This document shows, piece after piece, positions 13,385-44,547 of a DNA stretch of 64,000 bases (within the stretch, counting starts at the first letter, position 1; every line of letters begins with the position of its first letter). The DNA is from Pseudooctadecabacter jejudonensis (GTDB lineage: Bacteria; Pseudomonadota; Alphaproteobacteria; Rhodobacterales; Rhodobacteraceae), in the NCBI RefSeq assembly GCF_900172275.1, contig NZ_FWFT01000001.1, forward strand, positions 310,001 to 374,000. Direction: 5' to 3'. A model generated the notes under the pieces. That model worked only from the letters and a program-made list of their open reading frames with translations. It searched no databases and was not told the DNA's origin. The position numbers and the translations under genes are program-made.

Positions 13385-13933
13385 ATGACACGAAACACTG
13401 CACAGCCCGTCCTGACGTCGGGGGATGTGTCCTTGCGCAGGGTGACACACGACGACGTCGCAGACCGGTTTGCCCTGGGTCGATCGGCTGAGATCCTGAA
13501 GGGCTATGGCGTCGATGCCGCAGAGATGGGGCCCTACACCCACGACGATGCGAAGGCGTGGGTGGCCGCCCATGTGGATAAGGATCATGCTTTTGCCATT
13601 GATCACCGTGGCGCGCTGACCGGTGTTGTGTTTTTGCATTCCCTCGATGAGACCGACAAACGTGCGATATTGGCCGTGGGACTGTTGGATGAGGCCAAAC
13701 TTGATCAGGGCATCGGGGAGGCTGCGATCCGGCTGATCCTGGGTTACGCGTTTGATACATTGGGTCTGCACCGCGTGGCGTTGCGGGTGCTGGATGACAA
13801 CGCCCGCGCCATCGCCTGTTACCGCAAGTTGGGATTTGTGGAGGAAGGCCGTCTTCGTGAAAACGCCCTCGTGGCGGGCCGGTGGCAGGACGACATCATG
13901 ATGGGCCTGTTGGCGTCGGAGTTTCCCGCATGA
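13385..13933 (+). CDS. GNAT-family N-acetyltransferase (RimJ/RimL-like)
   Basis: A 182-residue GCN5-related acetyltransferase. The acetyl-CoA-binding loop is seen as DQGIGEAAIRLILGYAF near residue 110, followed by LHRVALRVLDDNARAIACYRKLGF, typical of ribosomal-protein or amino-group acetyltransferases. AAGGAGG precedes the ATG. It is the first of three overlapping genes (GNAT, LysE, GNAT) joined by ATGA overlaps between the ribosomal genes and obgE. Substrate unknown. Confidence 0.85.
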   Translation: MTRNTAQPVLTSGDVSLRRVTHDDVADRFALGRSAEILKGYGVDAAEMGPYTHDDAKAWVAAHVDKDHAFAIDHRGALTGVVFLHSLDETDKRAILAVGLLDEAKLDQGIGEAAIRLILGYAFDTLGLHRVALRVLDDNARAIACYRKLGFVEEGRLRENALVAGRWQDDIMMGLLASEFPA

Positions 13934-42987: not shown

Positions 42988-43302
42988 TTAGCCTTCGGCC
43001 ATGGCCGCGGACCTCGCTGATTTTTGCGACTTCAGGATCCGCGCCTCACACATCAAGGCCACCAGAATTTCAACGTGATGGGCCACCGAATACTCGGCGC
43101 GTTTGGTTTTGCGTTGCTGATCGACAACAGCCTCGATCTCCATCAGTTTGATGATCGCCTGGCCCGGGCCGGGCAAAGTTTCGGCCTTCAGCGCGCGGCG
43201 CAGATGCACCACACGGTTGTAATCGGCAATGCCGTGGCGGGCCGTGCGCACCAGTAAAGTTGGGCGTTTTAGGCTTGAGATCAGTGTCAGAACGTCTTGC
43301 AT
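42988..43302 (-). CDS. DUF6477-like small protein
   Basis: A 104-residue helical protein starting MQDVLTLISSLKRPTLLVRTAR and containing RRALKAETLPGPGQAIIKLMEIE, with the final ALMCEARILKSQKS. The pattern matches DUF6477, which I know from Rhodobacteraceae genomes; function unknown. GGGAGA lies 7 bases before the ATG at 43302. It is divergent from the DUF6456-like gene across an AT-rich 216-base gap carrying DnaA boxes. Confidence 0.72.
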   Translation of the reverse strand: MQDVLTLISSLKRPTLLVRTARHGIADYNRVVHLRRALKAETLPGPGQAIIKLMEIEAVVDQQRKTKRAEYSVAHHVEILVALMCEARILKSQKSARSAAMAEG

Positions 43303-43360
43303 GTGCAGTCTCCCATGAACGAAGTGCCACAAAGATGACACAACCATTAAGGGTGTTGCG

Positions 43361-43456
43361 TGTGGATAACTTGTAGCGAACGCAGCGTTTACAATTATTT
43401 ACACTTTGGAAACAATTTTGGTGTCTGTGGATAATGTTAACATTTCGGAAACAATT
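43361..43456. promoter_or_regulatory. AT-rich divergent control region with two DnaA boxes
   Basis: TGTGGATAA, the exact reverse complement of the DnaA box TTATCCACA, occurs at 43361-43369 and 43426-43434. Between and after them are AT-rich runs (TTTACAATTATTTACA) and a direct repeat GGAAACAATT at 43408-43417 and 43447-43456. This is the most AT-rich interval noticed in the window. It separates the DUF6477-like gene (leftward) from the DUF6456-like gene (rightward). Confidence 0.65.
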
Positions 43457-43518
43457 ACACGCAAGGGTTGTGTCACCCCGAAATGCTGGGTTGGGGCAAA
43501 TGGGAAGATGGTGCGGAC

Positions 43519-44547
43519 ATGAGAGATGCAAAAAGAGTATCGCTGGCGGTGCCTGCGTGGGTGCCGGCGGACGTCAGGAATTATGTATTTCACACAGAGA
43601 TGGGTCAGCCGATCCGGGCGCTGGCGCGGTCACAGTCGTGCCATGCGTCCACAATCATGCGTCAGATCCGCAAGGTGGAGACACGCCGCGATGACCCTCT
43701 TGTTGACAGTGCCATCAAAGCGCTGGCCGAGGCGGACGGTGCAGACGCAACCCCGTCAGATATAGAGCTGATGCAGGCGTTGCGCCGTCTGGCAGCTCCC
43801 AAAGCCATGCTGGCGATTGCAATTGGCATGGATCAGGGTGTCATTCTCCAAGACACCGCCACGCAGGAGCCTGATCACGCAAGTAAGCTGGCCTCACAGA
43901 CGGCAATGACCCTTGCGTTGCAGGGGTGGATCAGCTGCGGCAATACCATCGGGCGGGTGCTGCGATACCGGATCACATCTGCTGGGCGGGTGGCCTTGCG
44001 TGAACTGGTCGCGCGTACGGAAAATCAGGCGCGCGCCATGGCCGAAGCACCAGAGGCCTTCGTGGGGGCGCCCGCAGGTGTGGGAACATGGCAGGCCGGT
44101 GCAATGACACGGATGCCCCAGCAAGACAGCCCCGTGGTTTGCCTGTCGCGCCGAAAAGACAAGGACGGCAATCTGTTTTTGACCCGTGCCATGGTGCGCG
44201 CGTCCGAGCGCCTGCGCGAAGATTACGAACTCGCACGTGTTGACGCCCAACGTGACGGCAAAACGCCCCCAGACTGGCAACAGCTGTTGCAGGCGATCGA
44301 CCGCCATGCGGGCGTCGACACCGAAGGCGCATCCGCTGGGGCACAGGTGCGTGCCGCGCTGTCGTTTCTGGGGCCAGGTCTGGCGGAGGTCGCATTGCGG
44401 TGCTGTTGTTTGCTCGAAGGGTTGGAGACCACGGAAAAGCAAATGGGATGGGCGGCACGGTCGGGTAAAGTGGTGTTGCGCATCGCGTTGCAACGGCTGG
44501 TCCTGCACTATGAACAGACCGGCGAATTAGGCCCGCGCATCGGATAA
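43519..44547 (+). CDS. DUF6456-like helix-turn-helix protein
   Basis: A 342-residue protein. The N-terminal part has an HTH-like stretch VFHTEMGQPIRALARSQSCHASTIMRQIRKVE (about 24-55) followed by RRDDPLVD. The middle has winged-helix-like sequence (LRYRITSAGRVALRELV). The C-terminal 120 residues are helical (GPGLAEVALRCCCLLEGLETTEKQMGWAARSGKVVLRIAL). The pattern matches DUF6456; a DNA-binding regulator is likely, target unknown. Start is uncertain: ATG 43519 is chosen for the family N-terminus, and ATG 43483 is possible. Confidence 0.72.
   Translation: MRDAKRVSLAVPAWVPADVRNYVFHTEMGQPIRALARSQSCHASTIMRQIRKVETRRDDPLVDSAIKALAEADGADATPSDIELMQALRRLAAPKAMLAIAIGMDQGVILQDTATQEPDHASKLASQTAMTLALQGWISCGNTIGRVLRYRITSAGRVALRELVARTENQARAMAEAPEAFVGAPAGVGTWQAGAMTRMPQQDSPVVCLSRRKDKDGNLFLTRAMVRASERLREDYELARVDAQRDGKTPPDWQQLLQAIDRHAGVDTEGASAGAQVRAALSFLGPGLAEVALRCCCLLEGLETTEKQMGWAARSGKVVLRIALQRLVLHYEQTGELGPRIG

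Follow-up and report, generated by a model that had tools for sequence, protein, structure and literature searches.

Consensus DnaA boxes at the gafA promoter of Rhodobacteraceae point to a possible replication input into gene transfer agent production

Introduction

Gene transfer agents (GTAs) are domesticated virus-like DNA carriers whose release lyses the producer cell and is confined to a small stationary-phase fraction. We analyzed a 64,000-nucleotide stretch of the Pseudooctadecabacter jejudonensis genome (contig NZ_FWFT01000001.1, positions 310,001 to 374,000; hereafter the window), in which the gap between a DUF6477 gene and a divergent DUF6456 gene, gafA, carries two perfect copies of the DnaA box TTATCCACA. 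GafA is a direct activator of GTA genes (PMC9638019, PMC6363796), and the question that this locus raises is which protein would read the boxes, and to what effect.

The gafA gene, its CtrA site and the binding of CtrA, GtaR and GafA at the promoter in Rhodobacter capsulatus are already published (PMC6363796, PMC9638019), as is the position of gafA at the chromosome terminus in Rhodobacterales (PMC8116508), which had prompted the idea of replication coupling (PMC6473078, PMC8116508). No publication linking gafA or GTAs with DnaA boxes at a promoter was found in the literature searched (supplements not covered); in the part of a study of Rhodobacterales and GTAs that deals with DnaA boxes, these serve oriC prediction (PMC6699656). 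Here we report that consensus boxes are present above chance and conserved at the gafA promoter, and we propose, with a probability of roughly 0.6, that DnaA binds at this promoter to gate GTA production, probably as a repressor. If gafA does receive such a direct input from DnaA, this would offer a concrete, mutable site linking GTA release to the cell cycle beyond CtrA, and the boxes hint that DNA replication status helps decide the timing of GTA release.

Paired DnaA boxes in the window

Because the flanking gene is DUF6456/GafA by family and position, we read the gap, on sequence grounds, as the gafA promoter, shared with the divergent DUF6477 gene; R. capsulatus GafA, used as a query, retrieves DUF6456 proteins across widespread Rhodobacterales (PMC9638019). 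The initial annotation had described two perfect DnaA boxes 65 bases apart, with direct repeats, in the most AT-rich interval noticed and between divergent DUF6477 and DUF6456 neighbors. All of this was borne out: the box starts are 65 bases apart, the repeats are present, both families are recovered by domain matches, and, among 12,774 overlapping windows of 130 bp, the one with the lowest GC (0.369, against a mean of 0.594) starts at 43331. Its view of the flanking genes as uncharacterised had to be given up, GafA being a known GTA activator with a studied promoter (PMC9638019, PMC6363796), as had that of a lineage-specific regulator, the DUF6456 domain being present in 178 of 198 Rhodobacteraceae genomes and also in other alphaproteobacterial families.

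The 3.41-Mb genome holds 17 copies of TTATCCACA as against 23 of the word read backwards, and the two counts are likewise similar, as judged by eye, in the majority of 197 genomes, though not, for example, in G059 (95 versus 22). Since only 17 copies exist in the genome and the pair next-nearest to that in the gap is about 26 kb apart, the paired boxes are beyond chance. A third copy within the window, at 13573, is isolated.

Conservation and enrichment of the boxes across Rhodobacteraceae

The divergent gene pair was recovered in 156 loci (duplicates counted), which yielded 17 distinct gaps from the window's genus and 126 from other genera after identical gaps and one 1395-bp gap had been dropped; 14 gafA loci in which only one gene of the pair was recovered were excluded. 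The non-genus loci represent about 139 of the 178 matching family genomes, picked by contig convenience and non-random, and gafA starts were assigned by alignment to the GafA of the window. Named relatives of the window genome are mainly Octadecabacter, with one Pseudooctadecabacter.

Within the genus, 19 perfect boxes are spread over 14 of the 17 gaps, and TTATNCACA is found in all 17. Their positions are kept as well: at a threshold of at least seven of nine matches, the right box lies at offset -11 from a CtrA-like site in 15 gaps, and the left box at -76 or -77 in 16. That CtrA-like site, TTAAC-N6-GAAAC, occurs in 17/17 gaps, whereas the strict form TTAAC-N6-GTAAC occurs in none of these but in 53 of the 126 other gaps. 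When 11 genus gaps are aligned, invariant runs extend over a large part of the left box as well as of the repeats and the CtrA-like site, with more variation in the right box.

Beyond the genus, 27 perfect boxes occur in 25 of the 126 gaps, compared with a mean of 0.23 (maximum 3) in dinucleotide shuffles, two boxes in the 632 kb that make up the remainder of the same loci, and two in 378 low-GC control windows, of which the 157 matching the gaps' mean GC of 0.51 hold one. These boxes are strongly oriented, with 25 on the gafA-sense strand and two antisense, and a looser set of ten words gives a similar picture, with a site in 47 gaps (1.9 in shuffles) and 59 sense versus 6 antisense sites. 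At the seven-of-nine threshold, which is independent of the ten words, head-to-tail pairs or triplets with steps of 11-13 bp are present in 28 of the 126 gaps (shuffle mean 0.2, maximum 1), while the opposite strand has three and 630 kb of remaining locus sequence has two pairs. All but two of the 28 arrays (L100 and L109, which lie farther upstream) lie no more than 90 bp from the gafA start. Offsets from the CtrA site in other genera were taken from the 53 gaps whose site is strict; there, sense sites group at +32/+34, +43 to +46 and +55 to +58, counted from the start of the CtrA site. The presence of boxes and that of a strict CtrA site show no association (Fisher p 0.27).

A coding-repeat origin of the 12-bp step was considered and rejected, as steps of 11, 12 and 13 all occur and an in-frame stop precedes residue 1 in 17 of the 28 loci with arrays; the remaining 11 have no such stop, and a start-codon error is possible there. 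On a 138-leaf GafA tree, the gain and loss of boxes require at least 22 changes for the perfect box and at least 27 for the looser set (shuffled-label mean 45), and box presence therefore appears to be partly inherited and partly regained or lost.

Which protein would read the boxes

The same word recurs near a second gene in these genomes, which have two Maf genes each. The 800 bp upstream of one of them (L265-L274, 10 genomes), scanned first after a box of the window's own genome had been seen beside it, hold 11 perfect boxes in 8/10 genomes and 22 looser-set sites, and no box was found downstream of this maf or, in a set scanned later as a control, upstream of each genome's other Maf gene. 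The boxes adjoin maf and aroE in G120, a gene order that we take to mark oriC, and on this presumed order together with the clustering of boxes the maf-side stretch is likely oriC. Across L265-L274, the spacing of the boxes from the matched Maf start is nearly constant, with recurrent positions at about -164 and -20. TTATCCACA is, moreover, one of three words in a Rhodobacteraceae oriC prediction (PMC6699656).

The main rival binder is GafA itself, which controls GTA expression, uses its C-terminal region for autoregulation and has an N-terminal DNA-binding domain of DnaA-like type (PMC9638019), so that boxes read by a domain resembling DnaA domain IV could be sites for autoregulation. The GTA-cluster promoters, where full-length GafA is required, argue otherwise, all 30 stretches (about 700 bp each) being free of boxes, as does the use of the same word at the maf-side oriC. 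Residues D433 and H434 of DnaA presumably make base contacts. In the register given in PMC9638019, the aligned residues are H and A or P in 30/30 GafA N-termini, and the specificity of GafA should therefore differ from that of DnaA. As for the N-terminus of the window's GafA, its sole domain match is to HTH_38, below that family's cut-off (E 0.037), and a profile search of PDB sequences returned four matches up to E 10, with no DnaA among them. We consider binding of the boxes by GafA improbable.

GafA-type genes elsewhere show few such sites. In a class-wide draw of DUF6456 loci, the 1500 bp preceding the domain were taken from 26 loci, of which L219 belongs to Rhodobacteraceae and the other 25 to different families; these stretches had no perfect and two looser-set boxes, although two-gene operons may put some promoters outside the 1500 bp, and the 5.9 kb surrounding the gafA homologue of RDJL Phi 1 contain no looser-set box.

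Chromosome position of gafA

An AT-rich stretch with two perfect DnaA boxes might also be a replication origin, either oriC or a second one. The GC skew and oriC location that the initial annotation had proposed as checks speak against it: skew is positive in 28 of 32 2-kb windows with no minimum at 43 kb, and oriC-type boxes are located at maf on contig C6. With the gafA-bearing contig taken as a complete circle, the distance of gafA from dnaA is 0.30-0.50 of the chromosome in 18 chromosomes, reaching 0.40 or more in 14 of them, and its distance from the oriC-side maf is 0.405-0.50 in 9/9, which fits the terminus position published for Rhodobacterales (PMC8116508). With gafA near the terminus the gap is therefore not oriC, and an origin here, which we rejected on these three counts, has next to no chance of being correct.

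The same distance from the oriC-side maf, and the presence in the gap of two of the genome's 17 perfect boxes, would suit a minor site for DnaA titration or for timing, close to the terminus and with incidental effects on transcription, as the initial annotation had offered among its options. A datA-like titration site has many boxes and no promoter-related bias in orientation or position. Here boxes are few, their orientation in other genera is 25:2 and they keep preferred offsets from the CtrA site; titration is the weaker reading because the relatives' sites are biased in orientation and position relative to gafA, and we judge it very unlikely.

A proposed mechanism for DnaA at gafA

We infer from these data that DnaA would occupy the two TTATCCACA boxes in the gafA promoter. 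In the window's genus, bound DnaA would sit beside the CtrA-like site and compete or cooperate with CtrA; in most box-bearing relatives it would lie downstream of the CtrA site, ahead of the gafA start, and block gafA transcription, and head-to-tail sites with 11-13 bp steps would favor cooperative binding. In replicating cells DnaA would thus keep gafA low, coupling GTA production to replication state, and in starvation or stationary phase a fall in DnaA would release gafA when other signals favor GTA production. Loss of DnaA would permit gafA expression in stationary phase because, in Caulobacter, DnaA is cleared at entry into that phase (PMC4489657).

At the Caulobacter gcrA, ftsZ and podJ promoters, an alphaproteobacterial DnaA acts as a bound transcription factor (PMC8203912), as proposed here; the target in our case differs in being a GTA activator, and other genera carry head-to-tail arrays near the gene start. 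All three Caulobacter genes are DnaA-dependent (PMC8203912), and DnaA might likewise activate gafA, the DUF6477 gene or both, so that GTA production would rise with initiation-competent DnaA. The boxes of the window's genus, being upstream of the CtrA-like site, are in an activator-type position, and activation is possibly more plausible there than elsewhere; the arrays of other genera, so close to the gafA start in 26 of 28 cases, are better placed for blocking. Overall, we regard activation as unlikely.

Several points weigh against gating of gafA by DnaA, and against repression in particular. The direction of effect is a guess from box position, and in Caulobacter there are genes, gcrA among them, that DnaA drives (PMC8203912). 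The comparison across the family, which the initial annotation had put forward as a check, is divided: boxes are kept in the genus and enriched in the family, but 101 of the 126 other-genus gaps have no perfect box and 79 no looser-set site, and the ten words of that set were chosen after box orientation had been seen. Some words are kept more widely than the DnaA box, with GGGTGTTGC in 56/126 and CACAACCTA in 35/126 other-genus gaps. Head-to-tail arrays are absent from the 17 genus gaps, and since the boxes of the window's genus are placed differently from those of most relatives, a single mechanism may not account for every case. The R. capsulatus model, as set out in the relevant part of PMC9638019, mentions no DnaA input.

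A broader extension of DnaA gating, which we put forward tentatively and would sooner doubt than assert, is that DnaA on head-to-tail arrays at the terminus-located gafA promoters of many Rhodobacteraceae reads replication status, so that GTA particles and host lysis would arise only in cells done initiating or replicating, with lineage-specific box placement rewiring the balance between DnaA and CtrA.

Other elements of the promoter and comparison with known promoters

The features of the locus are collected in Table 1. Published gafA CtrA sites follow the conserved form TTAAC-N6-GTAAC, and their distance from the start codon is usually 65-71 bases (PMC6363796); the CtrA-like site of the window falls within this range of distances, while its second half-site deviates. 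The R. capsulatus promoter (Fogg, 2019, PMC6363796; Sherlock and Fogg, 2022, PMC9638019) has the same gene, the same divergent arrangement and a CtrA-like site likewise ending 66 bases before the ATG, and its predicted -35/GafA C-terminal site lies about where the conserved upstream block of the window does. By comparison with these published descriptions, the window's genus differs in its GAAAC half-site, and the promoter descriptions in the two papers leave DnaA boxes unmentioned for R. capsulatus. The Caulobacter gafYZ promoter serves homologous GTA activator genes, with RogA, IHF and GafY as known inputs (PMC9632790, PMC11150451), whereas the 25 DUF6456 loci of other families, a set outside which Caulobacter falls, had no perfect box.

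Table 1. Coordinates of genes and promoter elements at the gafA locus (window positions).
Feature	Position	Strand	Details
DUF6477 gene (PF20083), divergent neighbor of gafA	42988..43302	-	PF20083 E 4.5e-35
gafA/DUF6477 divergent promoter gap	43303..43518	.	Genus alignment, mean column identity 75%, 11 sequences
Conserved block TGACACAACC...GGGTGTTGC, DUF6477 side	43336..43358	.	GGTGTTGCG in 14/17 genus and 52/126 other gaps
Left DnaA box TTATCCACA (TGTGGATAA on gafA-sense strand)	43361..43369	-	76 bp upstream of CtrA-like site
Upstream 20-nt repeat copy TTTACACTTTGGAAACAATT, contains GAAACAAT	43398..43417	+	Candidate -35/GafA C-terminal domain site
Right DnaA box TTATCCACA (TGTGGATAA on gafA-sense strand)	43426..43434	-	2 bp before CtrA-like site
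CtrA-like site TTAAC-N6-GAAAC	43437..43452	+	End 66 bases before ATG; second half-site GAAAC, not GTAAC
gafA (DUF6456, PF20057), GTA activator	43519..44547	+	ATG at 43519; PF20057 E 3.1e-47

The word GGAAACAATT occurs at 43408-43417 and 43447-43456 within a 20-nt direct repeat whose copies are 85% identical and 39 bp apart, and TTTACAATTATTTACA starts at 43388; with one mismatch allowed, GGAAACAATT is not over-represented in the window (5 versus 4.86 expected). The repeats at 43398-43417 and 43437-43456 resemble two copies of one element, TTWAC-N6-GAAAC-AATT, at that spacing. In 16 genus gaps GAAACAAT precedes the CtrA-like site by 28-29 bp; in gaps of other genera that have both, the spacing is 27-30 bp, mostly 28. 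The repeat that bears it may be the GafA C-terminal/-35 site, as the passage on electrophoretic mobility shift assays in PMC9638019 suggests. The block at 43336-43358, also noted as TGACACAACC...GGGTGTTGCG, is conserved in a larger number of gaps than the DnaA box, and other genera have related words in inverted form (TAGGTTGTG) toward the gafA end of the gap.

The window genome encodes a DnaA carrying RDHTT, which we count in favor of DnaA as the reader of the boxes, and has a GTA cluster on contig C13 (portal, capsid and a GTA_TIM/Rcc01698-like protein). One of its proteins, a candidate CtrA, matches the DNA-binding part of a phage CtrA-like protein with 53% identity over query residues 2-92. 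The DUF6456 domain of the window's GafA comprises residues 198-333. By its position, the DUF6477 gene would be the counterpart of rcc01866, which is divergent from gafA and is also required for mature particles (PMC9638019).

Closely spaced boxes were also seen at other loci. Two perfect tandem boxes with starts 12 bp apart precede a luxI-like gene in L249 (G165:C57:77116-77136); a luxRI or quorum-sensing theme suggested by this TTATCCACA pair was rejected, as 29 other luxI upstream stretches (one of the 30 sampled was too short, and G165 was outside the sample) had no perfect and three looser-set boxes. Two perfect tandem boxes with starts 11 bp apart lie in an intergenic-looking stretch in L251 (G142:C179:8347-8366), and L248 (G142:C134:11100-11254) holds four perfect TTATCCACA boxes within 155 bp, just past an open frame.
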